Positions 3,001 to 35,902 of a stretch of 64,000 bases of DNA are shown here, piece after piece. Numbering within the stretch: position 1 is the stretch's first letter; each line of letters opens with the position of its first letter. The position numbers were made by a program, and so were the translations under genes. The stretch is taken from assembly GCA_937124585.1 (NCBI GenBank), contig CAKZKT010000116.1, positions 1 through 64,000 on the forward strand. The letters run 5' to 3'. Source of the stretch: an uncultured Anaerolineae bacterium (GTDB lineage Bacteria; Chloroflexota; Anaerolineae; CG2-30-64-16). The notes under the pieces were generated by a model that worked only from the letters and a program-made list of their open reading frames with translations, had not been told where the DNA came from and made no database searches.

Positions 3001-3284
3001 ACAACATCGCGGGCCGTACCCTGGGCGCGCCGACGGGCAGCCGGGTGGAAGTCTACGCGGACGCGGCCGATGAGGGCGAGCGCCTTGTGGGTGCGACCGC
3101 GCTCCTCGGGGAGAAATTCTACGTGAGCGCCCTGGCCGCGCTTCCCGTAGCGGCCCAGAATGGGCAAATCACGGTCAGCGTACCGCCCGAGTGGCGCATC
3201 TCCCTGCCGTTGGTCGTCCGCGATTATCGGCCGCCAGTGGGGAAGCCTATGCTTTACCTGCCGCTGGTGCTGCGAGGGCCGTGA
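1..3284 (+). pseudogene. Decayed secreted TIG / parallel beta-helix surface protein (5'-truncated by window edge)
   Basis: The readable protein moves through all three forward frames. A TIG-like stretch starts near base 9 and hits TAG at 95-97. An IPT/TIG domain follows (184-663) and ends in TAA at 664-666. A segment from about 800 has TGA at 947-949. Beta-helix repeats then run in one frame from about 1070 to 1975, in a second from about 1975 to 2760, in a third from about 2815 to 2995 and in another from about 3045 to 3284. The repeats are rich in NGxxGIxV/DNxVxxN turns, typical of right-handed parallel beta-helices (PF13229-like). The tail reads YLPLVLRGP, a C-terminus common in Chloroflexota exoproteins. 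The rest of the window has intact frames, so true gene decay is more likely than general sequencing error. The 3' end overlaps convergent hemA by 31 bases. Confidence 0.7.
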
Positions 3285-5241: not shown

Positions 5242-6855
5242 CTACTCTCTGGTCCTCATGACTGCGCTGAACTCTTGAGCGCGTCGGACCAGCCCCTCTG
5301 CCCACCCCGGTGCGCCTGCGGTGTACAAATGCGTGTACGAAGCCAGGACGTTGCGGTAGACCAGGCCATCGCGGCCGCCGCCGATGCCGTTGCCGCGATT
5401 CAGCCGATAGGCCGTGGACATGCCGGCGGACGTGCCAGGCACTTCGCAAGTGCCTGGCACGTGGGAGATCAGCCGCGAGTTGTGGAATTCGTGCCCACGC
5501 AACACGGTGCCGACGGGGAAGAACGGATTCGCCGTGTCCACGACCGCCTCGACGTAGCCATGTCCCTGCGGCCGGCCGGTCATCTCCACGTCGTACGGCA
5601 GCATGCCGGCCATCTCGGCCGACCGCTCGCCCCAGATGATGCGTCGCGCCAGGTACATCAGCCCGCCGCACTCGGCGTAGATGGGCAGCCCGGCCTCGGC
5701 CGCGGCCCGCACGCTCGCCCGCAGCCCGGCGTTGGCCGCCAGCTCCTCCATGAACATCTCCGGGAAGCCGCCGCCGATCACCAGGCCGTCCACCGGGGGC
5801 AGCTCGGAATCCTGGAACGCGTCCACGAACACCAGCGCCGCGCCGGCCGCCTCCAACGCCTCCAGGTTCTCCGGATAGTAGAAGGTGAAGGCACGATCGC
5901 GGAAGACGGCGAGGCGAATGGGTGAATCAACGAATGAGCAAATGAGCGAATCCTTCGCTGATTCGCCGACTCGCTGATTCGCTGATTCGCCGATTCGTGA
6001 TTCGCTGATTCGCCGACTCGCCGATTCGCTGATTCTCCGACTCGCCGACTCGCCGACTCGCTGATTCGCCGACGCGCTGCGCGCAATGGCAAGGATGGCG
6101 TCCAGGTCGAAATACCGCTCGGCCGCAGCGCGACAGGCGGCCAGGGCGGGGAGCAGGCCCTCGTCCTCGGCCCGCGGCACCAGGCCCAGGTGACGATCGG
6201 GGATGCTCAGCGCCTCGTCGCGGGGCAGCGCGCCGAGCACCGGGATGCCGCAATGATGCTCGATTGCGGCGCGCAGTTTCTCCTCGTGGCGACCGCGGGC
6301 GACGTTGTTAAGGATGACGCCGGCGATGGGCGTGCCCGGCTCGAAGGTCTGGTAGCCGTGGACCAGCGCGGCGACGCTGCGGCCCATGCGTGCAGTGTTG
6401 ACGACCAGCAGGATGGGGGCCTTCAGCGCGCGGGCGACCGCGGCGGTGGAGCCAAAGGCGTCATCACCTAACCCCCCGGCCCCCTTCCCTGCGAGAGAAG
6501 GGGGAGACGCGCTTCCCCCCTCTCCTGGCAGGAGAGGGGGGGCAGGGGGGATGAGGTGACCTATTCCGTCGTACAGGCCGTGATTCCCCTCGATGATCGC
6601 GATGTCGGCCCCGGCGACGCCGGACAAGAAAGCCGCGACCAACCGCTCGTCGTCGCCGCAGAAAAACGGATCGAGGGTGCGACACGGCCGGCCCGCGGCC
6701 TCGCTCAGCCACGACGGATCAATGTAATCCGGCCCCTTCTTGAACGGCTGCACGATCAACCCGCGGGCTGCCAGCGCCGCGCACAGCCCCAGGGTCACGG
6801 TGGTCTTGCCGCTGCGCCCCTGCGGCGCGCCGATTACAAGACGTGGGGTAGCCAT
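5242..6855 (-). CDS. dsrN: DsrN / cobyrinate a,c-diamide synthase-like siroheme amidase carrying three repeat inserts
   Basis: CbiA/CobB family: an ATP-dependent, glutamine-hydrolysing amide synthase. The N-terminus has the dethiobiotin-synthetase-type P-loop GAPQGRSGKTT. The C-terminal class I glutaminase domain has the nucleophile in AECGGLMYLARR. In sulfite reducers this family is DsrN, proposed to amidate siroheme, and the dsr context favours that over cobalamin synthesis. The start ATG at 6855 is 2 bases after the ferredoxin stop. At 537 residues it is longer than usual (about 450-460). The excess comes from three repeat-encoded inserts: a 32-residue Pro/Gly-rich one, a Ser/Glu/Arg octamer-encoded one (SASRRISE period) and a short hairpin-encoded one (VPGTCEVPGT). 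All leave the frame open. Confidence 0.8.
   Translation of the reverse strand: MATPRLVIGAPQGRSGKTTVTLGLCAALAARGLIVQPFKKGPDYIDPSWLSEAAGRPCRTLDPFFCGDDERLVAAFLSGVAGADIAIIEGNHGLYDGIGHLIPPAPPLLPGEGGSASPPSLAGKGAGGLGDDAFGSTAAVARALKAPILLVVNTARMGRSVAALVHGYQTFEPGTPIAGVILNNVARGRHEEKLRAAIEHHCGIPVLGALPRDEALSIPDRHLGLVPRAEDEGLLPALAACRAAAERYFDLDAILAIARSASANQRVGESASRRISESASRRISESRIGESANQRVGESAKDSLICSFVDSPIRLAVFRDRAFTFYYPENLEALEAAGAALVFVDAFQDSELPPVDGLVIGGGFPEMFMEELAANAGLRASVRAAAEAGLPIYAECGGLMYLARRIIWGERSAEMAGMLPYDVEMTGRPQGHGYVEAVVDTANPFFPVGTVLRGHEFHNSRLISHVPGTCEVPGTSAGMSTAYRLNRGNGIGGGRDGLVYRNVLASYTHLYTAGAPGWAEGLVRRAQEFSAVMRTRE
5430..5462. repeat. Perfect hairpin repeat (CGTGCCAGGCA family) inside dsrN
   Basis: Arms of 15 bp (ACGTGCCAGGCACTT and its complement) flank a CGC loop. 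The 33 bp equal 11 codons and sit in a variable loop of the glutaminase domain. The same family occurs in intergenic DNA near 29.6, 35.7-35.9 and 63.9 kb. Confidence 0.85.
5912..6078. repeat. Two-armed octamer satellite (GATTCGCY / GCGAATGA) inside dsrN
   Basis: About twenty 8-bp units. A short arm of GCGAATGA-type units turns at a CGAATCCTTCGCTGATTCG centre into a long arm of GATTCGCT, GATTCGCC and GACTCGCC units. Translated, the 24-base super-period gives an 8-residue repeat (RISESASR-like). An intergenic copy with the same inverted layout lies at 19277-19410. Confidence 0.85.
6464..6559. repeat. 96-bp palindromic G/C-rich element inside dsrN
   Basis: The element is bounded by TCACCT and AGGTGA. 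It contains two hairpins, the second with perfect 11-bp arms (CCCCCTCTCCT, loop GGC). Its 96 bp equal 32 codons, so the host frame is kept. A shorter relative lies in aroC (59234-59284). Confidence 0.75.
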
Positions 6856-6857
6856 CT

Positions 6858-7058
6858 TCACAAATCCAGCACCCAGATCGCGCCGTCCTCGCAGCTCGCC
6901 TCGCACGAGTAGCAGCCGATGCAGTCGCCGGGATCGCCCTGGAAAAAGGCATAGCGCCGGCCATCCTCATCCGCGATCGCAAATGCCTGGTTGGGGCAGA
7001 CCCGGATGCATTCGCCGCACGCGCGGCACTTCTCGATGTCAACGATGACGACGAACAT
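6858..7058 (-). CDS. Two-cluster [4Fe-4S] ferredoxin
   Basis: A 66-residue protein with two cysteine sets, CRACGECIRVCP and CIGCYSCEASCE, each suited to a [4Fe-4S] cluster. No signal peptide is visible, so it should be a cytoplasmic electron carrier. Its start overlaps the stop of the DsrE-like gene by one base, and it is followed 2 bases later by dsrN. It may carry electrons to or from the dsr machinery. The partner is not identifiable from sequence. Confidence 0.88.
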   Translation of the reverse strand: MFVVIVDIEKCRACGECIRVCPNQAFAIADEDGRRYAFFQGDPGDCIGCYSCEASCEDGAIWVLDL

Positions 7059-7432: not shown

Positions 7433-9049
7433 CTACATCTCCTCGTTCCACGTGATATACGGCCCCGGCAGGTCGGCCATCGCGTTGACCATCAGCTCCA
7501 CCAGGCCGCCGTACCAGATGCCGTGCTGCTCCCAGAGGTCGTAGTAGTTGATGGCCTCGCGCAGGGTGCCCTTGCAGTTGGAGCACGCCGCGATCACGTA
7601 CTTGCGGATGCCGGGGTCCAGGACGTCGCCGAACGCGTCGAGGATCTGCTTCACCTTCATGCGCGCCGAGACCGCGTTGCGCCACTGCGAGAAGTTCAGG
7701 GTGTCCATGATGGCGAAGCCGCTGCCGCCGCCGCAGCAGTAGTTGTGCACGCCGTGGGGCGCCATCTCGCGCAACGGCTGGCTGCAAACCGCCCTGACGA
7801 TCTCGCGCTGGGGCTGGACGATGCCCATCAGCCGGACGACGTTGCACGAGTCGTGCAGGGTGACCGGGAAATCGTTGCGGGATGGATCGAAGCGGATCGC
7901 GCCGCTGCGGACGATGTCCCACAGCAGCGGCAGGCAGCTCTCGCGCGGCCTCTCGGACACGCTGTGGTCGCCGGGCAGCACGCGGTCGGCGATCACACAG
8001 AGCGCCTTGTGCGCGTGGCCGCACTCGCCGACCACGATCTTCTTGACGCCCAGCCGTCGCGCGACCTCCACGTGTTGCAGCGCAATGCGCGCCAGCTCCA
8101 CGTCGTCGAACCAAACCGCGTAGTTGACCACATCGTAACCTAGCAGGTCGCTGCTCAGCGTCCAGTTGATGCCGGCGGCGTCGAACAGGATGGCGAACGC
8201 GGCCGGGTTCTCGGGCCACGAAATGAACTCGCCTGCGTTGTGGATCAGCAGGATGTCGGCGCCCTTTTTGTCCACCGGGATGGTGATCTTGCGGCCGGTC
8301 TTCTCCTCGATGATCTCCTCCAGGAACTCCACCGAGTTGCGGAACGCGGCCGGGTTCATGCCGGTGGAAGAGCCCGCCTGGAGGTGCTGCCGCGTGCCCT
8401 TGCGCAGCAGCTCGGTGGGCGCGATGCCCAGCTCCTGGCTGAACAGCTTGCGGATCTCGCGGGCGATCAGGGCGTTGTCAATGCCGGCCGGGCACACCTG
8501 CGCGCAGCGCCGGCAGATGTTGCAGCGGTACGACAGCTCCAGCAGCCGCCACACCGTCTTGAAGTTGACCTCGACGTCCGCGCCGATCAGCGGGCCGATC
8601 AGCTTGCCGGCCGGCGTGAAGTAGCGCTGATAGATGCGCCGCAGGATCTCCGAGCGGTAGGTGGGCCGGTAGATCTCCTGCCGGCCGCTGCCCAGGTAGA
8701 CGTGGCACGCCTCGGAGCAGGTCTGGCAGCGCATGCAGTAGTCCAGCGACAGGCGGAAGAGCTTGGCGAAGGTCCAGTTGGTCTCGGGGTCCAGCAGCTT
8801 CTCCAGGCCGGTCAGGAAGCCGCGCACCAGCCGCTCGCGCTCCTCCGGCGTCTTCGGCATGGGGATGTCGAAGTCGGAGAAGCCGTCCAGCGAGAGGTCG
8901 TAATTCTCCAGCCACCTGGGCCGGGGCGGCGTCAGCTCCGGCACGTCGCTCAGCGCGGGGAGCGGCATCAACTCATCGGCGCTAAGCGGGTTCAATGGTT
9001 CATCGGTCAGCCGGGCGATGTCCCGGAAGCGGATCGGTTGGCGGCTCAT
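7433..9049 (-). CDS. dsrK: DsrK-type heterodisulfide-reductase-like subunit (second copy)
   Basis: A 538-residue cytoplasmic FeS protein of the HdrD/DsrK family. Two [4Fe-4S] motifs (CMRCQTCSEACHV and CNICRRCAQVCP) precede a CCG domain. That domain holds the catalytic-cluster signature CCGGGSGFA, with further Cys-rich sites (HDSC, CSNCKG). DsrK is thought to reduce the DsrC trisulfide with electrons from DsrM. ATG 9049 overlaps the dsrM stop (ATGA) and has a good AAGGAG site. It differs clearly in sequence from the other DsrK at 19818-21266, so it is not a recent duplicate. Confidence 0.88.
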   Translation of the reverse strand: MSRQPIRFRDIARLTDEPLNPLSADELMPLPALSDVPELTPPRPRWLENYDLSLDGFSDFDIPMPKTPEERERLVRGFLTGLEKLLDPETNWTFAKLFRLSLDYCMRCQTCSEACHVYLGSGRQEIYRPTYRSEILRRIYQRYFTPAGKLIGPLIGADVEVNFKTVWRLLELSYRCNICRRCAQVCPAGIDNALIAREIRKLFSQELGIAPTELLRKGTRQHLQAGSSTGMNPAAFRNSVEFLEEIIEEKTGRKITIPVDKKGADILLIHNAGEFISWPENPAAFAILFDAAGINWTLSSDLLGYDVVNYAVWFDDVELARIALQHVEVARRLGVKKIVVGECGHAHKALCVIADRVLPGDHSVSERPRESCLPLLWDIVRSGAIRFDPSRNDFPVTLHDSCNVVRLMGIVQPQREIVRAVCSQPLREMAPHGVHNYCCGGGSGFAIMDTLNFSQWRNAVSARMKVKQILDAFGDVLDPGIRKYVIAACSNCKGTLREAINYYDLWEQHGIWYGGLVELMVNAMADLPGPYITWNEEM

Positions 9050-9969
9050 TTTTTCTCTCCTTCCGGGCTGATCATCTGGGCCTCTTCCAGCCACGTTTTG
9101 CCGGCCGCAATGTGCGGCGCCTGCCACTTCACCCGGTAGCCGAGCTGCCGGATCACCTGCCGATCCGCGGCCGAGCCTTTCGTCTTGAACGCGTCGTCCC
9201 ACAGCCCTTGATGGTAGAGGAAATACTTGATGACGTAGTGCAGCAGCTTGGAGAACGGCATGTAGACGACGAAAGCCCAGAAGAGCAGGAACGTCGCCAG
9301 GACGGCCCCGGACACGGCCGTGGGCTGGAAGGTCAGCGCGGCGCTCATATAGGCCCGATGCCCCGCCAGCGCCGGGTCGCCCGCCCACGAGATCAGGCCG
9401 GACACGAAGATGGCGGCCAGGAACGCCAGGTTGAAGTAGTCAATGGGCGCGGTGTAACGCGCCAGGTCGGGCGTGGTCGCGCGGCGGACGATCAACCCGG
9501 CGGCCCCGACCAGGCCCACGGCGCAGGCGACCACGAGCAGCGGCCCCGCGACCGCGGCCAGCAGGGCGCTGCGGGTCAGGCTTTGGACGATCAGCAGCAG
9601 CGCCCAGAGGACGAACAGGTAGATGCCCCAATGCAGCAGCGTGGAAAAGGCCCAGATGCCGTAGCGGTTGTGGCCGCGCACCTTCTTCATGGTCACGATT
9701 TCGGTGCCGATCTCGATGGCCTCGGGCGCCAGGAATTCGACGACCTCGGCCCAGAACGAGCGGCGCTCATGCTTCTTGGGCCAATCCACGTCCTCCATGT
9801 ACGAGCCGCCGTACTCGCGCCGGTCGCGCGCCTCATGCGGGATGGGGTAGACCTCCCAGCGCAGGCCCAGCGGCATGGAAGAGATCTTGACGACGCGGTA
9901 TACGGCGACCGCGAAGAAGATCACGACCGAGGCCCAGGCAAAGATGATGGCAAACCAGTGTAAGGCCAT
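9046..9969 (-). CDS. dsrM: DsrM-type membrane cytochrome b subunit (second copy)
   Basis: A 307-residue integral membrane protein of the nitrate reductase gamma/DsrM family, expected to bind heme b and oxidise menaquinol for DsrK. About six hydrophobic segments are visible. Histidines such as those in STLLHWGIYLF and SKLLHYVIKYF are likely heme ligands. A basic cytoplasmic loop with MKKVRGHNRYGIW separates the first helix from the core. Overlap with dsrK shows a DsrMK module. It is separate from the shorter DsrM (240 residues) at 21278-22000. Confidence 0.85.
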   Translation of the reverse strand: MALHWFAIIFAWASVVIFFAVAVYRVVKISSMPLGLRWEVYPIPHEARDRREYGGSYMEDVDWPKKHERRSFWAEVVEFLAPEAIEIGTEIVTMKKVRGHNRYGIWAFSTLLHWGIYLFVLWALLLIVQSLTRSALLAAVAGPLLVVACAVGLVGAAGLIVRRATTPDLARYTAPIDYFNLAFLAAIFVSGLISWAGDPALAGHRAYMSAALTFQPTAVSGAVLATFLLFWAFVVYMPFSKLLHYVIKYFLYHQGLWDDAFKTKGSAADRQVIRQLGYRVKWQAPHIAAGKTWLEEAQMISPEGEKK

Positions 9970-9990
9970 GGATGGCTCCTTTTTGGCTCA

Positions 9991-10022
9991 CACAAAGACG
10001 CAAAGGCACAAAGACCTAAACA
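9991..10022. repeat. Octamer array (CACAAAGA type)
   Basis: Four 8-bp units, CACAAAGA CGCAAAGG CACAAAGA CCTAAACA, fill the short gap between the radical SAM gene and dsrM. The stop codon of the upstream gene lies inside the array. Confidence 0.6.
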
Positions 10023-11137
10023 CCGAGCATCTTATAGCAGTGCTGGCACGGCTCGGGCGGCGGGGGCATAGCTGGCAGTTCCCCTTCGGCCACAGCGAAC
10101 AGCAGCGACGCATGCGCGCTGGTCTTGCGGCGCTGAAACGCGGCGCAGAACGCCTTGCGCGGCCGGCCCTCCCAGGCGGCCAGCAGCCCATCGCGCACAT
10201 CCCCGAAGCTGAGGGGGGTCAGCGGCCGGTCGGCCCCCTCGAAATAGCGCGGGGCCGGTTTTATCACAGGCATGCCGAGATACACACACGGCGTTACCTG
10301 GCCCAGGCTGTTGATGAACGCGGTCTCCGTGGGCTGCGCGTCGCACGCCATCACCGCGTCGCTGGCCGTCAACGGATAGGCCCGGAACTTGATGCCCAGC
10401 CGAGCAGCCTCCCGTTCAGCCTCGGCCACCAGCGCCAGGTGCGCCGGCTCGGGTGACGGCCCGAAGACGCGCAGGTTGTCCAGCTCCGGCGTGAACGCGT
10501 AGGTCAGGTTCGTCGCCACTGCTTCGTCGGCGCCCAGGTCGGCCGCCAGCCGCACGAACGCTGGCAGTTCGTGCATGTTGGGCCGCATCATCAGGTAATG
10601 CAGTTCCAGGTGCAGCGACGCCCCGGGCACGGCCGCGCGGCGCTCCGTCAAGCGGCGGACGTTGGCGACCAGCCCCTCGAAATTGGAGCCGATCCGCAGC
10701 GACTGATGCACCCCGGCGCTGGCCCCGGCGAACGACACCGAGAGCAGGTCCACGCCCTCGGCCAGGATGCGCGCCACGTTCTCCTCGGTGAGCAGGCCGC
10801 CGCAGCTGGTGAACCCCACCCGGCAGCCCGCCGCCTTCGCCAGCCGCACCATCTGCCAGAGGTCGCGGTGCAACAGCGGCTCGCCCCATCCCTGCAGGTA
10901 GATCAGCTCGAAGCGGCCCAGGTGCGGCCCGATGTGGTCGCGGAACACCTCCCAGGGCAGGTCGGCGTGCCGCCAGGCCGCGCCCAACGGCTTGTTGGGG
11001 CAAAACGAGCAGCGCATCAGGCACCGGCTGGTCACCTCCACCTGGAGGACCGGCCAGCGCGCCGCGCTCTTCTGCCGCCCCCGCAGCCAGGCGAGCAGCC
11101 GGTCAGGCCAGGAGGTGTGAGGAGCTGGGTTGCTCAA
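10016..11137 (-). CDS. Radical SAM protein with SPASM-like C-terminal cysteines
   Basis: A 373-residue protein with the radical SAM triad CLMRCSFC near residue 40, the GWGEPLL segment, and later cysteines (MACDAQPTET, VTPCVYLG, CQHCYKMLGV) like those of auxiliary-cluster SPASM domains. It should cleave S-adenosylmethionine to a 5'-deoxyadenosyl radical. The substrate is unknown. It lies between the toxin-antitoxin pair and the second dsrMK, in the same orientation. It does not show the AhbC/NirJ-type triad of siroheme-modifying enzymes, so a tetrapyrrole role is only a guess. Peptide or metabolite modification is equally possible. Confidence 0.78.
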   Translation of the reverse strand: MSNPAPHTSWPDRLLAWLRGRQKSAARWPVLQVEVTSRCLMRCSFCPNKPLGAAWRHADLPWEVFRDHIGPHLGRFELIYLQGWGEPLLHRDLWQMVRLAKAAGCRVGFTSCGGLLTEENVARILAEGVDLLSVSFAGASAGVHQSLRIGSNFEGLVANVRRLTERRAAVPGASLHLELHYLMMRPNMHELPAFVRLAADLGADEAVATNLTYAFTPELDNLRVFGPSPEPAHLALVAEAEREAARLGIKFRAYPLTASDAVMACDAQPTETAFINSLGQVTPCVYLGMPVIKPAPRYFEGADRPLTPLSFGDVRDGLLAAWEGRPRKAFCAAFQRRKTSAHASLLFAVAEGELPAMPPPPEPCQHCYKMLGV

Positions 11138-11202
11138 GATGCCTTATCCAAAATCACCGGTGATGACGATGTACTTTAGGCCCTCCCTTTAGCTAGGCCT
11201 AC

Positions 11203-11586
11203 TTAGCGCTGGCCTTGCTTGGGAATATACCGCACACCGGGAATGTGCTCAAAGTGCTCATCTTGTGTCCAAAGCGTCGCATCGTGAACGCGAGCGGTTG
11301 CCAGAATAATGCTATCGGCCATCGGGAGCCGGTACTCTAAAGAGACTTTGACGGCAGTCAACGCAAGCGGGACATCGAACTCGCGAACGCGTCCACGCAG
11401 CATCACGGCAACAGCTTGCAACGCCTCACTTTCGCTGCGTTGCTGCAAGACGCGTTTGAACACTTCGTACACGCTGATCACAGGTACGAGCAATTCAGAC
11501 GTGGCCTCAACCGCCGGCGCAAAGAAATCCGCATTCGGCCCATCGGCGAAATATTCAAGCCAGCCGGATGAGTCAACCACATTCAT
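11203..11586 (-). CDS. PIN-domain ribonuclease toxin (VapC-like)
   Basis: A 127-residue PIN-domain protein. Acidic active-site residues are visible: the N-terminal MNVVDSSGW Asp, a central Glu (EVFKR), the MADSIILATA Asp and the late LWTQDEHF Asp. PIN toxins cleave RNA when the partner antitoxin is lost. The start overlaps the antitoxin stop by four bases (ATGA), the standard layout of type II modules. It sits inside the dsr locus. Confidence 0.88.
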   Translation of the reverse strand: MNVVDSSGWLEYFADGPNADFFAPAVEATSELLVPVISVYEVFKRVLQQRSESEALQAVAVMLRGRVREFDVPLALTAVKVSLEYRLPMADSIILATARVHDATLWTQDEHFEHIPGVRYIPKQGQR

Positions 11587-11789
11587 AGCCGATCAGGCTC
11601 TCGGTCAATGTCAGTATCAATCCCTTTGAGAAAGCCGCGCATTTCTTGGGTTGGCCGGATAAGGATCAACTCAATTCGGTCTTCGTACGGGATCACCTGT
11701 ACTTTTTGGCCAGGACGGATCCCGAGAGCCTCACGCACCGCGCGTGGGATCACGATCTGGAACTTTGGAGAAATCGAGACTGCTTCCAT
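11583..11789 (-). CDS. AbrB/MazE-type antitoxin (VapB-like)
   Basis: A 68-residue DNA-binding protein with the SpoVT-AbrB swapped-hairpin signature (ISPKFQIVIPRAVREAL..PGQKVQVI). The C-terminal half (EMRGFLKGIDTDIDREPDRL) would wrap the PIN toxin. It is the first gene of the pair and likely autorepresses it. The upstream DNA (11790-11930) is partly AT-richer and holds a TGCATGCA palindrome, a possible operator. Confidence 0.88.
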   Translation of the reverse strand: MEAVSISPKFQIVIPRAVREALGIRPGQKVQVIPYEDRIELILIRPTQEMRGFLKGIDTDIDREPDRL

Positions 11790-11930
11790 GCTACCCCCTC
11801 TAACGATAAGCCTCTCGTCGCACGCAGTCCAATTCTAACATATATCGCTGAGAACTGCATGCAGTCCTGATCCGAGCCGGCTCGTTGGGAGATGCATGGT
11901 CATACTATCCACCACGACCGAGCCCACACG

Positions 11931-13574
11931 CTATTTGTACTTCACCGCGATCTTCTGCGCCGCGTCGAATGCCTGCGCGAACGCGGCCCCTGCCATCGCC
12001 CGGTTCACCGGCAGCATCGCCTTCGCCAGCGCCAGCGACGCCTCGGCCGGGGCCAGGGGGTCGCCACGGACACGGGCGGCCAGAGCCATGGACAGCGCGG
12101 CGTCGAAATCTTCCTGTGCCCCCGTTTTGGCCGCGATGTGGCGTAGCACTTCCGCCTTCTCTGCCTCGGTGGGCAGCTTGAGCAACGATTCGCGCGCCGC
12201 GGCGACGTCGTTGAGTGTCGCCGCGATGCGATCCGTCCGCAAGACGTAGCCGGCGTTCGGCATAGCTTTTCCGGCAGCAACCGCAGCCTCGGCCCACGGC
12301 CGCAGGGCAGGGTCGGTCACTTTGGCCAGCGTCGAGGCCGCCTGGCCGGGGTCAACCCGGGGCCACTCGGCGGCGATGGCAGCCAGGTCCACCTGGCCGT
12401 AGACGGTGCGGTTTTTCTCGGCCAACGCCTGGGCCTGGGCCATGATCTCGGCCGCGCGCGCCGGGTCCACCGCGGCCCATTCGGCCGCGATCAGGCGCAG
12501 CCCCCAGGCCCGCGACCGCACGGCTTCCAGCTGGGCGGCCAGCAGCGCGGCCTTCTCCTGCGTCGCGGGCGAGCCGATGCCGGCCTCCCACGCAGCCCAG
12601 GCCTGGCCCCACAGCGCGTCCGCGTATTCCTCGGCCTCGGCCGCGGCCTCTAGCGCGGCGTTTAGCGCGACCTCGCCCTGGGCCGGGTCGAGCTGCGACC
12701 ACGCGGCGCCTACCCGCGCTAGCATCCATGCGCGCGCCAGCGCCCGGTCGGCGGTGTCGGCCACGCGGCCGGAGGTGTCCAGTGTGGTCTGCACCGCCTG
12801 CTCCTCGGCGGTGGGGATCGCCACGACCGCGGCGGGCGTGCGGAACAGCGGCAGCGCGAACAACACGAACACCAGCCCCGCGACCGCAACAGTGCCCCAA
12901 CCCGGCCGTCCCTCGCGCCACCACGCCCGCGCCGCGGGCCGGAACTTCAATGTGTTGCGCAGCCCCCACGCCAGCGAGCCGAGCACGACCAACGTCACCA
13001 GGACGGCGAAGAGCAGCACCCGGTTGCGTTTGCCCGCATCAATCGCCTGGTTGAACGCCGTGAGCACCTTGTTGCCCTGGAAGCGCAGCGTCTGCGCCTG
13101 CGACGTGAATGCGTCCAGGCTGGTCACCGGTGCCTGCCGCAGCGCGTCGTAGCCCTGGCGGAACGCGGCCAGCCGCTTCTCCTGCGCCGCGACCGCGCCG
13201 CTGCCGGCGAACGTCCCGGCCCGCTCGGTGGCGGTCAACAGCTGCTCGGTGTAGAGCAGTTCCTCGCGATAGGCTTTCACCGCCGGGCAGGTTGCCTCCT
13301 CCGGCGGCCGCGCCTGCCACTCGGCCAGCTTGCCGGGCGCCGGATCGGCCGCGACGTGACAGGAGGCGCAGTAGTTGCCGGGCTGCAAGTCTTCCGCAGA
13401 GGCAGCGCCGCAAAAAGAAAGCAGCAGTACAAAACAAACGATGATGACAAATACCGGAGTCGAGGCTGCGCGCACCCCCCTCTTGGGGTTGGCCGGCAAC
13501 TTACATCGCCCGGAGAGACCGATCCCGGGTTGTTTGACTTGCATCCAAACGCTCGGTAAACGATGGATCATCAC
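11931..13574 (-). CDS. Membrane-anchored monoheme c protein with helical-repeat domain, function unknown
   Basis: About 547 residues. A long N-terminal signal region is followed by one c-type heme motif (NYCASCHVA), a helical linker, two membrane segments (about residues 187-207 and 230-247) and then a roughly 290-residue Ala-rich helical domain. That domain repeats the pattern AAEWA..DPARA, resembling a TPR/HEAT-like solenoid. I know no family with this order. GTG 13574 has GGAGG 6 bases upstream and overlaps the stop of the 53-residue gene; ATG 13571 is the alternative. Its place at the end of the MopB/FeS/NrfD run suggests a subunit or assembly/scaffold factor of that complex (inference). 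Confidence 0.75.
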   Translation of the reverse strand: MMIHRLPSVWMQVKQPGIGLSGRCKLPANPKRGVRAASTPVFVIIVCFVLLLSFCGAASAEDLQPGNYCASCHVAADPAPGKLAEWQARPPEEATCPAVKAYREELLYTEQLLTATERAGTFAGSGAVAAQEKRLAAFRQGYDALRQAPVTSLDAFTSQAQTLRFQGNKVLTAFNQAIDAGKRNRVLLFAVLVTLVVLGSLAWGLRNTLKFRPAARAWWREGRPGWGTVAVAGLVFVLFALPLFRTPAAVVAIPTAEEQAVQTTLDTSGRVADTADRALARAWMLARVGAAWSQLDPAQGEVALNAALEAAAEAEEYADALWGQAWAAWEAGIGSPATQEKAALLAAQLEAVRSRAWGLRLIAAEWAAVDPARAAEIMAQAQALAEKNRTVYGQVDLAAIAAEWPRVDPGQAASTLAKVTDPALRPWAEAAVAAGKAMPNAGYVLRTDRIAATLNDVAAARESLLKLPTEAEKAEVLRHIAAKTGAQEDFDAALSMALAARVRGDPLAPAEASLALAKAMLPVNRAMAGAAFAQAFDAAQKIAVKYK

Positions 13575-13732
13575 TCGCTGCCTCCGCCCATAGGGTGGCC
13601 GTCGGCCTCGGGCGGCTTCGGAGCCGAAGCGATCCAGTGCACCATCCGCACATAAGCGATCAGCACCGGAATGGCGATCAGACCGACGATGATCCCGCCG
13701 ACGCCGGCGGTGTCAATGATCCAATGAGCCAT
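13571..13732 (-). CDS. 53-residue single-pass membrane peptide
   Basis: Reads MAHWIIDTAGVGG, then a hydrophobic helix (about residues 12-33) and a polar Pro/Gly tail. GGAG lies 9 bases upstream of the ATG. It is tightly packed between the NrfD-type gene (21 bases) and the heme/solenoid gene (overlapping), so it is probably translated. Small one-helix subunits are common in quinone-linked membrane complexes such as alternative complex III. That role is inferred from position only. Confidence 0.7.
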   Translation of the reverse strand: MAHWIIDTAGVGGIIVGLIAIPVLIAYVRMVHWIASAPKPPEADGHPMGGGSE

Positions 13733-13752
13733 GGGAGGGTACTCCGTGTAAT

Positions 13753-15144
13753 CTACATCTGCGGCGCGGCGAGCAGCTCCGCAGCTTTGCGCTTGACTGC
13801 GGCGATGTGTTCGCCCTCCTCCACCTCCCAGACCGAGATAGCCGGGAAGATCTTGAAGAAGAGCAGGAACAGCAGCGCGAAAAGCGCCAGGGAAGCGGCC
13901 GTGATCGCGATCTCGGTGAAGGTGGGCGCGTAGATGGCCCGCTCGTAGCCCAGCGAGGGCCGCGTCAGGGTCGGCGCGATGATGGTGAAGCGCTCGATCC
14001 ACATGCCGACCGCGATGGCCGCCGACGCGATCACCGTGCCGACCGGGGTCCGTCCCCTGCGCCGGATCAGGATGGCGAACGGCACGACGAAGTTCAGGAA
14101 CACCATGGCGTAGAACCACGGCGCGTATTCGCCGCTCAGCTTGGCCTGCAGCACCTCCTGCTCGTGCACTAGCGTGCCGTAGCCCGTGGTCAGGTACTCG
14201 GCCAGGGTGAAATAGCCCCAGAACGCACTCATCACCAGCAGCAGGATGCCCAGGTAGTCGTATTGTTTCGGCCCGATCCACGGCTCCAGGTGCCAGGCCT
14301 TACGGATCAGCGTCATGAACAGGAACAGCGTGGCGATGCCGGAGAAGATTGCGCCGACGACGAAATAGGGTCCCAGGATGGTGCTATGCCACATGGGCTG
14401 CATGTTCATGCCGAAGATCCACGAGACCACCGTGTGCACCGAGACCGCGATGGGGATGATCAGGATCGCCATGATGCCGATGCCCCGCTCCAGCCGGCGC
14501 ACCTGCTCCGCGCTGCCGTGCCAGCCCAGGGCCAGGATGCGGTAGAAGTGATAGCGCCAGGTGTGTTGGAACGTTTCAACGTTCCAACGTTTCAACGTTC
14601 CAACGGCTGAAAGGGGCAGTTCTGGTTTCATCCGATCCCGCAGCCGCGCCAGGTCGGGGATCATGGGCAGGTAGAGGTAGAGCGTGCTGCTCAGCAGGTA
14701 GAGGCTGATGCAGGTCACGTCCCACAACAGAGGCGACTGGAAGCGGCCGAAGAAGATGACGTTCAACACCCGATCCAGGCGGCCCAGGTCAATCAAGATC
14801 TGTATGGCGCCCAGGATCAGCGCGAAGAAGGTGATCGCCTCAGCGATGCGGGTGATGGGCCGGCGCCACTCGGCCTGAGTCACGCGCAGGATGGCCGAGA
14901 TCAGCGTGCCCGCGTGGCTGATGCCGATGAAGAACACGAAGTTGGTGATGTAGATGCCCCAGTAGATGGGCCGGCTCAGCCCGGTGACGCCCAGGCCCAG
15001 CACCCACTGCCGCACCAGCGTGATCGCGCCCACCAAAACCACCGCCGACAGCACGCCGATCACCAACCAAAACTGCACAGTGGTGTGACGGAGAGGGTTG
15101 AGCACAGCCCTCTCCAGCTCTGTTTCTCGATGAACATTTTCCAT
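13753..15144 (-). CDS. NrfD/DsrP/ActC-type integral membrane quinone-interacting subunit
   Basis: A 463-residue protein with about ten membrane helices, the size of ActC/QrcD/DsrP rather than the shorter PsrC type. NrfD-family subunits exchange electrons between the quinone pool and an FeS partner. Starts considered: ATG 15144 has GGAG 8 bases upstream and is preferred over GTG 15153. A 13-residue insert (VGTLKRWNVETFQ) in a loop is encoded by five octamers. It follows the four-cluster FeS gene and precedes the 53-residue peptide. It takes the DsrP position of a DsrMKJOP-like order, but a molybdopterin-family subunit is also present upstream, making the complex unusual. Confidence 0.88.
   Translation of the reverse strand: MENVHRETELERAVLNPLRHTTVQFWLVIGVLSAVVLVGAITLVRQWVLGLGVTGLSRPIYWGIYITNFVFFIGISHAGTLISAILRVTQAEWRRPITRIAEAITFFALILGAIQILIDLGRLDRVLNVIFFGRFQSPLLWDVTCISLYLLSSTLYLYLPMIPDLARLRDRMKPELPLSAVGTLKRWNVETFQHTWRYHFYRILALGWHGSAEQVRRLERGIGIMAILIIPIAVSVHTVVSWIFGMNMQPMWHSTILGPYFVVGAIFSGIATLFLFMTLIRKAWHLEPWIGPKQYDYLGILLLVMSAFWGYFTLAEYLTTGYGTLVHEQEVLQAKLSGEYAPWFYAMVFLNFVVPFAILIRRRGRTPVGTVIASAAIAVGMWIERFTIIAPTLTRPSLGYERAIYAPTFTEIAITAASLALFALLFLLFFKIFPAISVWEVEEGEHIAAVKRKAAELLAAPQM
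14565..14604. repeat. Octamer array (GTTGRAAC type) inside the NrfD gene
   Basis: Five exact-phase 8-bp units: GTTGGAAC GTTTCAAC GTTCCAAC GTTTCAAC GTTCCAAC. They encode the loop RWNVETFQH and keep the frame. Confidence 0.8.
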
Positions 15145-15172
15145 CAATGACACTCCGCTCCCCGCTGCTCCC

Positions 15173-15228
15173 CTATTTCCTTGTTTCTTTGTCTACTTGT
15201 TTCCTTGTTTCCCTGTTTCCTTATTTCC
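15173..15228. repeat. Octamer array (TTGTTTCC type), nrfD/FeS junction
   Basis: Seven 8-bp pyrimidine-rich units (CTATTTCC, TTGTTTCT, TTGTCTAC, TTGTTTCC twice, CTGTTTCC, TTATTTCC). They fill the space between the FeS-gene stop and the NrfD start. The same unit recurs at 19755-19813. Confidence 0.8.
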
Positions 15229-15229
15229 C

Positions 15230-15916
15230 TCACCCCTGCTTCAAATAATACACCTTCGGCTCCGTCCCCATCTCCTCCAGCAGCCGGAAGGCGCGGGGGC
15301 TGCGGGACAGCTGGTAGACCAGGCTGTTCGGGTCGTCCAGGTCACCGAAGTAGCGGGCGTGACCGGTGCAGGTTTGCACGCAGGCGGGCTGATAGTCGGC
15401 CGCGTTGAAGGGCCGGCCTTCGGCCGCCGCCTTCTCTTTCGCGTGGCGCAAGCGCTGGATGCAGAAGGTGCACTTCTCGATGACGCCCTTGGGCCGCGGC
15501 GCGACCTCCGGATCGGGGTTCAGGTGCTCGCGCATTCCGGCCGGCCACTCCGGCGCATACCAATTGAAATAGCGCACCTGATAGGGGCACGCCACCGCGC
15601 ACATGCGACAGCCGATACAACGCTGGTAGTCCACCACGACGATGCCGTCCTCGTTCTTGTACGTGGCCTTCACCGGGCAGACGTAGGTGCACGGCGGCTT
15701 GTCGCACTGCTGGCAGGGCCGCGGCACCAACAGCACCTCTACTTTGGGGTACTCGCCGTGGACAAAGGCCAGCACCTCGTTCCATAAAATCGCCCGGTCG
15801 CGGCCGGTTTGATCGGGCCCGGCCGGCGGCGTGTTGTTCTCCATGCGACACGCCGCAGTGCAGCTCTGACAGGCGAAGCATTTGTCCAGATCTATGACCA
15901 TTCCCCAACGGGGCAT
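15230..15916 (-). CDS. Four-cluster [4Fe-4S] protein (DsrO/PsrB/QrcC type)
   Basis: A 228-residue protein with the four cysteine sets of CISM beta subunits: CFACQSCTAACR, CQQCDKPPCTYVCP, CIGCRMCAVACPYQ, and CTFC..CVQTC. It would form an electron wire between the molybdopterin-family subunit and the NrfD protein. ATG 15916 is chosen because GGAGG stands 5 bases upstream; the in-frame ATG at 15949 lies in repeat-like sequence. No Tat signal is seen, so if the mature complex is periplasmic this subunit would be carried across with the Tat-signalled partner. Confidence 0.9.
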   Translation of the reverse strand: MPRWGMVIDLDKCFACQSCTAACRMENNTPPAGPDQTGRDRAILWNEVLAFVHGEYPKVEVLLVPRPCQQCDKPPCTYVCPVKATYKNEDGIVVVDYQRCIGCRMCAVACPYQVRYFNWYAPEWPAGMREHLNPDPEVAPRPKGVIEKCTFCIQRLRHAKEKAAAEGRPFNAADYQPACVQTCTGHARYFGDLDDPNSLVYQLSRSPRAFRLLEEMGTEPKVYYLKQG

Positions 15917-16014
15917 GTGGGCCTCCGGGATGTCTATTGCGTACCGCATACTACCATACTGCGTATCATGGCGATCAGCGGATTTATGCAGTATGCAGTA
16001 CGAAGCTGTCTCCC

Positions 16015-18345
16015 CTACACCTTGTACACTTTCACGCGCGTCACGCCCTTGCTGGCGAGGAGCTGGTTGACGTTGGCGCCGATGACGGCTGGAGCCTGGC
16101 TGCCGCGGCCCCAGCGGATGGTGGTGCGGTGGCCCATGCCGGGCGGCATGTACACGGCGTTGGGCCATAGACCCTCATACAGACGGACAACGGCTTGTAC
16201 CCGGCCTTGAGGCGATTCCACCCAGACACGGTCGCCACTCTGCACGCCCAATGCCTTGGCCGCCCGCGGGTTCATCTCCACCCAGGCGCGCCACTTCATG
16301 TTGGCCTGTAGCCCGTAGCTCTCCTGCAGCGTGGGCACGATCCCCGGCCACGGCCGCGGGTGGGTGATCAGGCCCTGGGTGACCAGCACGTACGGGTATT
16401 CGGTCGCTGCGCCGGCCTCCGCGGGCACCTGGAAGTGGGGGAGGCACGCCAGGTCGGCCTTGGCCGGATCGCCCTGCCCGGCCACCATCGCATAGAGCTC
16501 GCGCGCGAAGAAGTCGAATCGGCCGTCTTTGGGCGCTTGCAACCGATCGCGGCCCACCACCTGCGGCCAGGCCCGGCTGCCCGGCTCTGCGTGGAAATAG
16601 ACCATCTCGGACCAGACGCCGTTCTCCCGGAACTTCTCCCAGTCGGTGTCAATGGCCGACAGGCGATGCTCGAAGAGCGTCTTGTAATCGGGGAAGGGCA
16701 ACGCCTGCGCCACGGGATCCCCCAACGCAGCGGCCAGCGCCAGCAGCACATCGCCCGGGTTGCGGGTGTCGTGGACCGGCTCGACCACCGGCTGGCGCAG
16801 CGACACGCCCGCATAGCCGGTGCCCTCCACGAAATCGTCCCCCCAAACCTCCAGGAAGGTGCTGGCCGGCAGGATCAGGTCGGCGTGCGCGCTGGTTTCG
16901 TCCGGCACCGAGGCGAAGCTGACCACGAACGGCACCTTCAAGAGCGCCTCGGCCATCTTGCCGTTGGCCGGATGCTCGTAGACCGGGTTGGTGTTGAGCA
17001 GGAAGAGCACGTTGACCGGATAGGGGGTGTCTGCGGCCAGGCGTTCGGCCAGCAACTCGGGCGCCAACGGCTCGAACGGGTTGTCGCTGATGGCGTCGAG
17101 CCGCGGTTGGGTCAGGGATGGGACGGTCGGCACGGCCACGAGAGGCCACGGCGTCAGCTCGGGGAAGCGCTGCACCAGCACGCCGCCGGCCACATCAATG
17201 GAGCCCACCAGCGCATTGAGCGCGTGCACGGCCAGGGCGTCGTAGAGCGGCAGGCCGTCCGGCTCCACGGGCATCACGGCGATGGCCGGCCGGTTGGTGG
17301 CGAACTCGCCGGCCAGACGGGCAATGTCGGCGGTGGGCACGCCGGTGATGAACTCGACGCGCTCCAGCGTGTATTTCTCCAACACCAGCCGTTTGAAGCC
17401 CATGTGCGACGCGCCCACCGCGTCGGTGAAGTCCTCGAACCCAAAGGTGAAATCCCGGACGAAGTCGGCGTCGTACAGGCCGCTGTTGATGATCACGTTG
17501 GCCATGCCCAGAGCCAGGGCGCCGTATGTGCCGGGCCGGATCGGCACCCACTCGTCGGCCTTGACGCCGGTGAGGGAGAGCCGTGGATGCACGGCCACGA
17601 ATTTGCCCCGGCGGGGTCGGCCGCGGCGCATGAAGGCCAGCGCGGCCAGCGCGCCGATCACGTGCCGGCTGGACTCGAGGTAGTTGCCGCCGAAGGCCAT
17701 GACGTAATTCGCGTTGTTCACGTCGTAGACGGGATAGCCGTTGATCCCCTGCGACAGAAACATGGCCATGCGGACAGCATGTTCGCCTGCGCTCTCCAGG
17801 AAGATGGTGTTCGGCGAGCCGTAGGCGCTCATGAAGCGGTTGATGACGCTGCGGAGCGAGCCGCGCGTGTCGCCATGCAGGAACGCGACCGTGTGCATCT
17901 GGCCGTCTGCGGCCAGCTCAGCCAGTTTGCCCGCCACCAGCGCCAGGGCCTCGTCCCAGGAGACCTCACGCCAGGTCGCCGAAGGGTCTGTCTTGCTGCC
18001 GGTGCGCACGCGCGGGCGCTGGATGCGTTCCGGGCTGTACAGCATCTCCAGCGACGCCTGGCCGCGCAGGCAGCACACGCCCTGGTTGACCGGGTGGATG
18101 GCGCTGCCTTCCACTTTGACCGCGCGGCCGTTCACCACGCGCACTTCCAGGCCACAGCCGGAGGGACACAGCGCGCAGGTCGTGCGCACCCGCTTCTCCT
18201 CCAGCGCCGACGCTGCGGCCGCGGGCATCCCGGCCCAGGGCTGGCCGGCATGATCCAGGAGTGACTGCGTGCCCGCGGCCGCAGCCACGGCTGCCGCCGT
18301 CACACCGGTAAGCTTGATGAAGTTCCGTCGAGAAAGATGGCTCAT
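16015..18345 (-). CDS. Molybdopterin oxidoreductase-family subunit (MopB), Tat-exported
   Basis: 776 residues. An N-terminal twin-arginine signal (SRRNFIKLTG) is followed by a [4Fe-4S] motif (CALCPSGC..VCCLRGQ), the bis-MGD binding core and a C-terminal MopB dinucleotide domain (ARAAKALGVQSGDRVWV). In the segment where many family members have the Mo-ligating Cys/SeCys (between YGSPN and YVMAFGGN) no cysteine occurs. Either another ligand is used or, as in QrcB and ActB, the cofactor may be absent. It resembles polysulfide/thiosulfate reductase-like and Qrc-like subunits, but the substrate cannot be assigned. It is followed by the FeS and NrfD genes and preceded by two cytochromes and a Rieske protein. 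Confidence 0.85.
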   Translation of the reverse strand: MSHLSRRNFIKLTGVTAAAVAAAAGTQSLLDHAGQPWAGMPAAAASALEEKRVRTTCALCPSGCGLEVRVVNGRAVKVEGSAIHPVNQGVCCLRGQASLEMLYSPERIQRPRVRTGSKTDPSATWREVSWDEALALVAGKLAELAADGQMHTVAFLHGDTRGSLRSVINRFMSAYGSPNTIFLESAGEHAVRMAMFLSQGINGYPVYDVNNANYVMAFGGNYLESSRHVIGALAALAFMRRGRPRRGKFVAVHPRLSLTGVKADEWVPIRPGTYGALALGMANVIINSGLYDADFVRDFTFGFEDFTDAVGASHMGFKRLVLEKYTLERVEFITGVPTADIARLAGEFATNRPAIAVMPVEPDGLPLYDALAVHALNALVGSIDVAGGVLVQRFPELTPWPLVAVPTVPSLTQPRLDAISDNPFEPLAPELLAERLAADTPYPVNVLFLLNTNPVYEHPANGKMAEALLKVPFVVSFASVPDETSAHADLILPASTFLEVWGDDFVEGTGYAGVSLRQPVVEPVHDTRNPGDVLLALAAALGDPVAQALPFPDYKTLFEHRLSAIDTDWEKFRENGVWSEMVYFHAEPGSRAWPQVVGRDRLQAPKDGRFDFFARELYAMVAGQGDPAKADLACLPHFQVPAEAGAATEYPYVLVTQGLITHPRPWPGIVPTLQESYGLQANMKWRAWVEMNPRAAKALGVQSGDRVWVESPQGRVQAVVRLYEGLWPNAVYMPPGMGHRTTIRWGRGSQAPAVIGANVNQLLASKGVTRVKVYKV

Positions 18346-18404
18346 CGCATCCGTTCCCCGTGCCGGATTGCCGGGCCCTCACAAACGCGCCCGACACAAC
18401 CCCG

Positions 18405-18773
18405 TCAGTTTCCTTCGAAAGAGCGCAGCCAGGCTCGCACGCGCTCGACCTGAACCGGCGCTGCTGTGGGGGGCACGGCCGGTGTCACCGTGCGCGGTAT
18501 CGCCACGAAATCAGCCGAGTTCACCTTCAGCCGCACGCCCAACAGGGCCAACGCATCGGCCAACGCCGGTACGGTGCCCGGCCGGCCGCTGCCCACCCAG
18601 GCCTGGCCGCGCGGGGTGCGCAGGCCGCCGCCCGACGGGCTGATGTGACACGACGCGCACGGCTCGCCGGTCTGCGTTGAATACTCCGGCAGCGCGCCGG
18701 TGGGCTGGCTGGCAGATAACAGCAGAATGATAGATATAATGACAAGCAAGCCGACCAACACACCGCGTCGCAT
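18405..18773 (-). CDS. Small monoheme c-type cytochrome
   Basis: A 122-residue exported protein: hydrophobic signal/anchor (about residues 4-22), one heme motif EPCASCHISPSGGG, then a Pro/Thr-rich C-terminal part. ATG 18773 is preferred because AGGAG stands 8 bases upstream; ATG 18779 and GTG 18803 are also in frame. The distal ligand is not obvious. It lies between the Rieske and MopB genes and is a plausible electron carrier for that module. Confidence 0.8.
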   Translation of the reverse strand: MRRGVLVGLLVIISIILLLSASQPTGALPEYSTQTGEPCASCHISPSGGGLRTPRGQAWVGSGRPGTVPALADALALLGVRLKVNSADFVAIPRTVTPAVPPTAAPVQVERVRAWLRSFEGN

Positions 18774-18799
18774 AATCATCGCTCCTGAATTCCTTACGC

Positions 18800-19255
18800 T
18801 CACGCCTCTTCCCCCACCACCACCATGTCACCATCCACCCGCACCGTGAATTGCTCCAACGGCAACGGCGGCGGGCCGGCCAGCACCTCCCCGAACTGAT
18901 CGAAGCGGCCGTCGTGACAGGGACAATAGAACTCCTTGGCCCCCTCCTGCCACTGCACCAGGCAGCCCAAATGCGTGCAGACCAGCGAGAAACAACGGAT
19001 GCTTTCCGGCGTGCGCACCACCAGCGCGGGCGTAGCGCCATAGGTGATCGGCCGCGTGCCACCCACGGGCAGCTCGGCCAGGGGGAAGGTCACCGGTTTC
19101 GTTTCGGCCGTTGATGTGCTCGGGAACAACAGCGATTGCACCGCAGTGCCGGCCCACGCCGCAGCCACCGCTGCCATCCCGCCCAGGATGAGCCTGCGGC
19201 GGGAGATAAACGGAGATGGCCCAGAAGGCAAAGATTTAGCCGCTTGTTCAGACAT
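18800..19255 (-). CDS. Rieske [2Fe-2S] protein with Tat-type signal anchor
   Basis: 151 residues. The twin-arginine segment SRRRLILGG and one hydrophobic helix are followed by a Rieske fold. The cluster ligands are in CTHLGC and CPCHDG, the full two-Cys, two-His set, with GRFDQFGEVLAGPPPLPL after it. Rieske proteins of this kind work in bc1/b6f complexes. No cytochrome b gene is nearby, so here it seems to belong to the MopB/FeS/NrfD module. ATG 19255 has GGAG 8 bases upstream. The neighbouring cytochrome genes point to a periplasmic electron chain. Confidence 0.92.
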   Translation of the reverse strand: MSEQAAKSLPSGPSPFISRRRLILGGMAAVAAAWAGTAVQSLLFPSTSTAETKPVTFPLAELPVGGTRPITYGATPALVVRTPESIRCFSLVCTHLGCLVQWQEGAKEFYCPCHDGRFDQFGEVLAGPPPLPLEQFTVRVDGDMVVVGEEA

Positions 19256-19276
19256 CACTAGAACTCCGAAGAAGGG

Positions 19277-19410
19277 AGCGAGTCGGCGAGTCAGCGAGTC
19301 AGCGAATCGGCAAATCAGCGAGTCAGCGAATCAACGAATCAATGAATCAACGAATCTTCGCCATTCGCTCATTCGCCCATTCGCCCATTCGCCCATTCGC
19401 TCATTCGCCA
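19277..19410. repeat. Two-armed octamer satellite (AGCGAATC / CATTCGCC)
   Basis: About sixteen 8-bp units. AGCGAATC, GGCGAGTC and ACGAATCA types run to about 19360, then the polarity flips to CATTCGCC units. This is the same inverted design as the satellite inside dsrN (5912-6078). Its right end supplies the last two codons and stop of the upstream diheme cytochrome gene. Confidence 0.85.
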
Positions 19411-19716: not shown

Positions 19717-19813
19717 CGTGATACGTGATGCGTGATACGTGATGCGTGAAATCCGTGTTTCCCTGAGTTCCCCCAATTCCCTTGTTTCCCTGTTTCCTTG
19801 TTTCCCTGCTCCC
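19717..19813. repeat. Heptamer plus octamer arrays between dsrK and the diheme cytochrome
   Basis: Five heptamers at 19717-19751 (CGTGATA and CGTGATG alternating, last CGTGAAA). These are followed by TTGTTTCC/CTGTTTCC octamers, clearest at 19782-19805. Confidence 0.8.
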
Positions 19814-22007: not shown

Positions 22008-22095
22008 TCCGTGATGCGTCATGCGCAGCGTACTGCGTACTACGTACTGCGACTGGACAGCTGGCCGCAAGGCGCAATACGTAATACGCAGTATC
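22008..22095. repeat. Heptamer arrays (GCGTACT type), dsrM/dsrC junction
   Basis: Four 7-bp units at 22028-22055 (GCGTACT twice, ACGTACT, GCGACTG). Inverted TGCGTAT/TACGTAT units follow near 22074-22092. Nothing else is seen in the gap. Confidence 0.7.
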
Positions 22096-27901: not shown

Positions 27902-28240
27902 GGGCCGGTCGGAGACCGGCGTTACGCAGGCCCTCTGCCTCTCTGAGCCACATAGGGCCGGTCTCCGACCGGTCAGCGCCATGTAACGCCGGTCTTCGAC
28001 CGGTCAGCGCCATGTAACGCCGGTCTTCGACCGGTCAGCGCCATGTAACGCCGGTCTCTGACCGGTCAGTGCCATGTAACGCCGGTCTCTGACCGGTCAG
28101 TGCCATGTAACGCCGGTCTCTGACCGGTCAGCGCAGGCCCTTGAACGTTCGCGTCGGGCCGGTCGGAGACCGGCGTTACGCTGAGCCACGTCGGGCCGGT
28201 CGGAGACCGGCGTTACGCAGGTCCTCTGCTTCTCTGAAAG
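27902..28240. repeat. Array of CCGGTC-NNN-GACCGG palindromic repeats
   Basis: Nine copies of a short palindrome. Five are in a 31-bp tandem (27983-28131, unit TAACGCCGGTCTTCGACCGG plus TCAGCGCCATG). The outer copies (near 27903, 28157 and 28195) lie in opposite orientation, ending ..GACCGGCGTTACG. A flank GTTACGCAGG.CCTCTGC.TCTCTGA is also repeated at both ends. Two related palindromes lie at 55277-55320. The layout is REP-like; no protein is encoded here. The rest of 27779-27901 shows nothing clear. Confidence 0.85.
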
Positions 28241-35711: not shown

Positions 35712-35733
35712 AGTCAAACTCTTCCTCTGTGCT

Positions 35734-35888: not shown

Positions 35889-35902
35889 GAATACAGCGAT
35901 TT

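Follow-up and report, generated by a model that had tools for sequence, protein, structure and literature searches.

In-frame repeat arrays in nrfD, hemA and cobB

The window, i.e., the whole 64,000-nt stretch from the genome of an uncultured Anaerolineae bacterium that was analyzed here, carries short tandem arrays inside genes and between them. The features considered are as follows:

3254–4621, minus strand: hemA (glutamyl-tRNA reductase), with GlutR domains
3739–3782, minus strand: imperfect octamer array, about 8 extra HemA residues (TRF, alignment)
5242–6906, minus strand: cobB-like gene with CbiA and GATase_3 domains (domain search)
5914–5953, minus strand: inverted arm of the cobB array, ends approximate and set by eye (TRF 5933–5951)
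5954–6079, minus strand: GCGAATCR octamer array, in the CbiA–GATase_3 interdomain linker (TRF)
13753–15153, minus strand: nrfD, carrying an in-frame AACGTT array insertion (PF03916, translation)
14565–14604, minus strand: AACGTT octamer array of GTTGGAAC/GTTGAAAC units, inside a 54-nt insertion in nrfD
15176–15228, no strand: TTTCCTTG octamer array separating nrfD from the iron-sulphur gene upstream of it (TRF)
19277–19356, no strand: AGCGAATC octamer array, left arm of an inverted pair (TRF, fold)
19357–19409, no strand: TTCGCCCA octamer array, right arm of the inverted pair (TRF, fold)
19717–19749, no strand: CGTGATA heptamer array (TRF)
19777–19808, no strand: TTCCCTGT octamer array (TRF)
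22028–22055, no strand: GCGTACT heptamer array (TRF)
40853–40902, no strand: TCACGCC heptamer array at a gene end (TRF)

The open reading frame at 13753–15153 encodes NrfD according to its Pfam match to PF03916 (E 9.6e-33). NrfD was matched in 30 of 60 genomes, the source genome included, and the best among the named matches were Chloroflexi/Anaerolineae MAGs. The nrfD array comprises 40 bp and encodes the peptide RWNVETFQH; its coding-strand sequence is GTTGGAAC GTTGAAAC GTTGGAAC GTTGAAAC GTTCCAAC. TRF reported it both as an octamer (period 8, 4.5 copies, 89% match) and as an exact 16-mer (2.2 copies), while the hemA array had a period of 8 with 76% match (3739–3776). The initial annotation had described exact 8-bp arrays in these two genes, at 14565–14604 and 3751–3782, respectively; exactness holds for nrfD when read as a 16-mer, but not as an octamer, and does not apply to the imperfect hemA array.

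Among 34 aligned NrfD rows, drawn from 44 matches with five duplicate loci and six weaker matches omitted, a long insert at this loop was present in three: the source genome, G004 (locus L067) and G005 (locus L068). The anchor-to-anchor length was 147 nt in the source genome, 135 nt in G005 and 294 nt in G004, compared with exactly 93 nt in five other relatives, one of which (G009, locus L070) belongs to the same family as the source genome. The repeats at the loop were AACGTT octamers in the source genome, GGTCAGC heptamers in G005, and, in G004, a different repeat within a 201-nt insertion, the repeat-like sequence CCTGAGCCTGCCGAAGGGG. Residues 179–195 of NrfD were predicted to form a low-confidence coil between two helices (predicted model, mean pLDDT 70.9).

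HemA, matched in 27 of 60 genomes including the source genome, was eight residues longer than in 18 of 22 relatives; its excess over the remaining ones was nine residues (L055), seven (L051) or five (L059 and L060). The earlier statement that the arrays add loops to conserved proteins was therefore confirmed, given the 54-nt in-frame insertion in NrfD and the eight residues gained by HemA over most relatives. The octamer array of the cobB-like gene, which the initial annotation did not contain, is larger (126 bp) than those in nrfD and hemA. A second CobB insertion (...AGKGAGG) was seen at approximately 6460–6560 on the minus strand, and its peptide matched several places in G009, with some further matches in G004, G007 and G040. 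With regard to the surroundings of nrfD, a minus-strand gene run at 7433–19258 encodes DsrK-, DsrM-, radical SAM, NrfD, QrcC-, QrcB- and Rieske-like proteins; the proteins scanned fell below their own NCBIfam cut-offs.

A genome-wide class of heptamer and octamer arrays

The source genome comprises 4.83 Mb in 164 contigs. When the nrfD region was compared with it, 23 matches were obtained, mostly onto the AACGTT stretch, and the repeat unit proved to be AACGTT followed by one or two bases, with heptamers and octamers mixed. The pattern AACGTT-N(1-2)-AACGTT-N(1-2)-AACGTT occurred 52 times in the source genome, 1–10 times in each of 13 out of 149 relatives, and not at all in the other 136. Similarly, 11-mers of the NrfD array reached 21.7 per 100 kb in the source-genome sample, compared with 0.8–4.8 in four relatives. 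A general over-representation of AACGTT was rejected, as 135 copies were observed in the source-genome sample against 122 expected, with the arrays counted in. In G013, 12 matches of the reversed control pattern (TTGCAA units) were found, which perhaps represent another palindromic-word family.

The excess of arrays over chance was assessed on 396,213 bp, made up of the window and 20 stretches, some of them picked for AACGTT matches. At a TRF score of at least 40, there were 16 period-8 and 14 period-7 rows, versus means of 0.3 and 0.0, respectively, in three third-order Markov copies. In a larger sample of 778,789 bp (the window plus 40 stretches, partly picked for AACGTT matches; 685 genes by custom gene calling, 88% coding), we counted 45 arrays of period 7 or 8, of which eight were located in coding sequences (CDS). 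The genes carrying arrays in this sample were hemA, nrfD, cobB, glyS, a PF00144 hydrolase, two family-2 glycosyltransferases and a 2-oxoacid dehydrogenase acyltransferase. In glyS, the array lies between the alpha and beta parts (site 1), and the beta part has a second, shorter insertion (site 2). Because most such arrays are intergenic, the copies in nrfD and hemA are instances of a genome-wide repeat class and are not private to either gene.

Further repeat words were GCGAATCR, GGARACAA, CGTGATR and GCGTCAG, and some 9-bp words exist as well. Matches to GCGAATCR arrays numbered 651 in G006, 71 in G004 and 39 in the source genome, and were present in 15 of 60 genomes including the latter; arrays of this word are common to the family. 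Array densities per 100 kb, biased upward in all five genomes by stretches partly picked for known matches, were 39.1 in G004, 7.6 in G007, 5.8 in the source genome (G000), 3.4 in G001 and 2.2 in G036, with Markov copies yielding 0 or 1 array. The G004 stretches L218–L237 held 135 arrays in 345 kb before merging, 49 of them in CDS, and by eye their repeat words grade into each other.

Shared sites and differing words in related genomes

All comparisons with relatives are between genera, since the genomes searched include no second member of the source genus. Across five genomes, 15 ortholog pairs carried arrays in both members, and the site was shared in 15 of 27 array tests, compared with a null mean of 2.6 and 0 of 2000 random placements. 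Sharing extended to five of six ortholog groups, with glyS contributing 10 of the 15 pairs. In these five groups, arrays of the two sampled genera occupy one site with different words. The cobB linker likewise holds repeats of other words, as judged by eye, in G004, G005 and G009.

At glyS site 1, a period of 7 or 8 was detected in all six scored family members (z 5.2–8.8, best of lags 5–12), and outside the family six of 23 other rows were periodic (z at least 4.5). The words at this site vary from genus to genus, G000 and G005 sharing one. At site 2, the family members G000, G004, G005, G007 and G009 carried arrays, as did G006 as far as a run of N; outside the family, arrays were present in G029 and, likewise as far as a run of N, in G021. 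None were found in the family members G001, G002 and G003 or in most other rows. A reading of the site-2 arrays as the mark of a single clade in the tree was dropped, as G006 and G009 are carriers and G001, G002 and G003 are not. The runs of N fall at the glyS arrays of loci L277 (G021) and L278 (G006).

The words at glyS sites recurred elsewhere in the same genome above shuffles in four of five genomes (G000, G004, G001 and G036), while in G007 recurrence was 2.7 versus 3.8 in shuffles; for the words of G000 and G036, recurrence was about equal in another genome.

These data bear on whether arrays grow purely locally, i.e., by slippage in place in unconstrained DNA, with no copying between loci and with the likeness of words due to composition and chance. 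Such growth would agree with the gradation of words into one another within G004 arrays, with the re-use of permissive sites by other words, and with the hemA repeat word, which had no other occurrence within the source-genome sample. However, it does not sit well with a word such as AACGTT at many loci of the source genome that is rare or absent in relatives, with the 651 GCGAATCR matches in G006, or with the recurrence of glyS words, and we regard it as unlikely.

The same-site, word-swapping behavior is the interesting part of the pattern. One tentative possibility, which we hold to be somewhat doubtful, is that occupied sites rather than words are inherited, and that concerted evolution acts genome-wide on arrays together with their inverted partners, so that the word at an orthologous site, even in glyS, may be swapped between genera while the arms stay complementary and the frame stays open. 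Independent insertion at permissive sites would equally give the same site with another word. If occupied sites were inherited, this would be satellite-like behavior scattered through the genes of a bacterium; if sites persisted while words turned over, it would constitute a dispersed bacterial counterpart of satellite evolution that repeatedly rewrites protein linkers. Site persistence with word turnover would also account for odd peptides such as RNVETFQH, NQRVGESA and KETRRQGDKE, and would explain some assembly gaps, since G006 and G021 have runs of N at their glyS arrays.

Placement relative to genes, inverted partners and folding

After merging, 39 arrays remained in the source-genome sample: eight in CDS, 28 in gaps between same-strand genes, and one each in a convergent gap, a divergent gap and at a contig end. 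Given 88.7% coding DNA, arrays are depleted from CDS (8 of 39; binomial p 1e-22). Among the 28 same-strand gap arrays, 21 started within 10 nt of the upstream stop codon and four ended within 10 nt of the next start codon, with median spacings of 3 nt from stop to array and 35 nt from array to start. In G004, 35 of 103 merged arrays were in CDS and 52 in same-strand gaps, 32 of the latter near the stop and seven near the start. A role as operon terminators is unlikely, since 28 of the 39 arrays lie between same-strand genes and only one between convergent genes.

Some arrays are followed by their own inverse, as at 19277–19356/19357–19409 in the window and at 13705–13754/13756–13805 in L151. 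These folded strongly (z −6.6 for the merged 19277–19409 and −10.9 for the L151 pair). Nevertheless, the median fold z was −1.4 for 39 array loci versus −0.76 for 40 control gaps; some arrays gave positive values, and several existed in a single orientation only, with positive z. The proposition that all arrays are hairpins was consequently rejected, with the median near that of control gaps and the arms unmatched in part of the glyS sequences.

The glyS arms were compared in 11 of the 12 periodic site-1 sequences (the periodic G027 sequence was omitted) and in five site-2 sequences. At site 1, the summed own-arm score was 124 versus 76.5 over pairings (P 0.00025), and at site 2 it was 78 versus 50.6, the best of 120 pairings. 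Taken singly, the own-arm match was not significant in four of 11 sequences at site 1 (G004, G006, G007 and G015) and in one of five at site 2 (G029), and the left arms of G000 matched the right arms of G005 better than their own right arms. The two glyS arms thus change together in part of the cases.

Position and pairing together raise the question of functional hairpins, that is, RNA or DNA structures placed behind stop codons in the manner of REP elements and serving, within genes, as pausing sites at domain borders. REP elements behind stop codons act in translation or mRNA protection. The closeness of arrays to stop codons in both genomes, the strong folds of the L151 and 19277–19409 pairs and the covariation of the glyS arms are all in line with such a function, but the DNA near stops is also the freest to change, the median fold is near that of control gaps, and several arrays have one orientation only and a positive z. 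Within genes, the arrays of glyS, cobB and the acyltransferase do lie between domains, whereas those of nrfD, hemA and glyS site 2 are not at domain borders. A general hairpin function therefore seems quite unlikely.

Reading frame and the question of a switch

In the initial annotation it was reasoned that, eight not being a multiple of three, only certain copy numbers stay in frame. This was borne out: with −2, −1, +1 and +2 octamers, NrfD (466 residues) ended at residues 225, 189, 189 and 197, and HemA (455 residues) at 355, 314, 363 and 322, whereas the frame of both stayed open with three octamers more or fewer. The further claim, that copy-number change could switch the genes off, has only this arithmetic behind it. 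As at contingency loci, a non-triplet unit of 8 bp lies within the reading frame; however, a run of several perfect units, which would be liable to slippage, was not found, the nrfD and hemA arrays matching at 89% and 76%, respectively, over 4.5–4.8 octamers.

A limited search for off-state, i.e., broken, genes at arrays found none. No array-split gene was revealed by Pfam domains on both flanks in 13 pairs (15 pairs scanned), and none was found among the 71 of 90 same-strand gaps with a homolog for at least one flank, a weak test based on 1,542 local proteins. When glyS was searched by reading through stops, matches came from 39 of 41 genomes, and none of those listed contained an internal stop. 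The split glyS matches of G021 and G006 were discarded as counter-evidence, since each coincides with a run of N at the array, where the frame cannot be judged. Relative to the 75 nt of the source genome, glyS site 2 differed by 9, 15 and 48 nt in G007, G004 and G005, respectively, of which only 48 is a multiple of eight; the divisibility of insert lengths by three follows in part from the selection of open frames. Glycyl-tRNA synthetase, another array carrier, is essential.

A phase-variable switch, in which octamer gain or loss in nrfD and hemA toggles the frame so that cells within the population differ in heme synthesis and in electron transfer linked to NrfD, is very improbable despite the 8-bp unit and the truncations caused by one or two copies, given that the units are few and degenerate, the carriers are housekeeping genes, the same arrays are mostly intergenic and no array-split gene was encountered in the limited search. 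If sites do persist through word turnover, this would caution against taking every in-gene repeat with a non-triplet unit for a switch.

Arrays as probably tolerated, fast-changing sequence

With a probability of roughly 0.7, we favor the reading that the arrays are dispersed copies of words of 7–8 (some 9) bp that undergo word turnover, partly in the form of an array plus its inverse, and are tolerated wherever reading frame and fold permit it. In appearance, they resemble tolerated genomic clutter that changes fast, not an on/off switch. The data themselves establish that the arrays are dispersed, where they are placed (behind stops and, within genes, in linkers or loops), that frames are open in the genes examined, that words at shared sites differ between genera, and that arms covary in some of the glyS sequences. 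Under this reading, arrays would accumulate in DNA that is free to change, i.e., just behind stop codons, and in linkers or loops if the frame survives. Words would grow through slippage within arrays, and template switching or conversion, between one array and another and between arms, might copy them or put others in their place, so that occupied sites could persist while the word drifts. Frame-breaking lengths would be removed by purifying selection, with frame and fold kept. The NrfD and HemA insertions would accordingly be tolerated loops without a needed function.

Comparison with known repeats

Cyanobacteria have short tandem or very small mobile repeats, the STRR heptamers and small mobile repeats reportedly described by Mazel in 1990 and Elhai in 2008. 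The present arrays share the features of dispersed short tandem repeats (LSSR/STRR), being tandem words within the 5–11-bp range, with one word at many loci and a mostly intergenic location. Long simple sequence repeats of 5–11 nt go back to Mrazek et al. 2007, as cited in PMC4679880. That article describes TAACTGA heptamer repeats in Beggiatoaceae, Cyanobacteria and Bacteroidetes, mostly just upstream of start codons. While that system, as presented there, has one word located mostly upstream of starts, the arrays studied here have several words, lie behind stops, partly possess inverted partner arrays and also occur inside conserved enzymes (PMC4679880).

PMC4692102 reports GGGAATC and GGGGA(C/T)T repeats in Xanthomonas and Nostoc, which resemble the present arrays in being genome-wide heptamers, enriched in non-coding DNA and in many cases near stop codons. 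Those repeats are described as G-quadruplex formers with strand bias, whereas our arrays were compared with them by placement and dispersal (PMC4692102).

The palindromic elements of Rickettsia (Ogata et al. 2000, reviewed in PMC2229807) are dispersed hairpin DNA found in frame in conserved genes and apparently tolerated. The present arrays are also dispersed and in frame in conserved genes, and some have an inverted partner and a strong fold while others do not. The Rickettsia elements, however, measure 105–146 bp with terminal inverted repeats (PMC2229807), in contrast to our variable arrays of 7–8-mers, in which a single site has different words in different genera; no defined length and sequence was found here, as lengths, 7/8-bp mixes and words all vary.

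As for the proposed copying between arms, quasipalindrome template switching is known to make the arms of imperfect inverted repeats alike (PMC7202029, PMC8604942); it is not known to act on dispersed octamer arrays, for which we merely propose it as one component of the mechanism. Our arrays have features in common with the TAACTGA, Xanthomonas/Nostoc and Rickettsia repeats and fully match none of them. The pattern is best read as a variant of heptamer repeats already known from bacteria and of Rickettsia-type protein-coding palindromes. No paper on such arrays in Chloroflexota was found in the literature searched, in which subscription journals were thinly covered.

Tandem repeats of longer units were also observed in the window. 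TRF reported a 31-bp unit, GCCGGTCTCCGACCGGTCAGCGCCATGTAAC, at 27957–28134 (5.7 copies, 96% match), a 58-bp unit at 35715–35895 (3.0 copies) and a 98-bp unit at 46609–46883 (2.8 copies); the last contains CCTCCGTG-type 9-mers.
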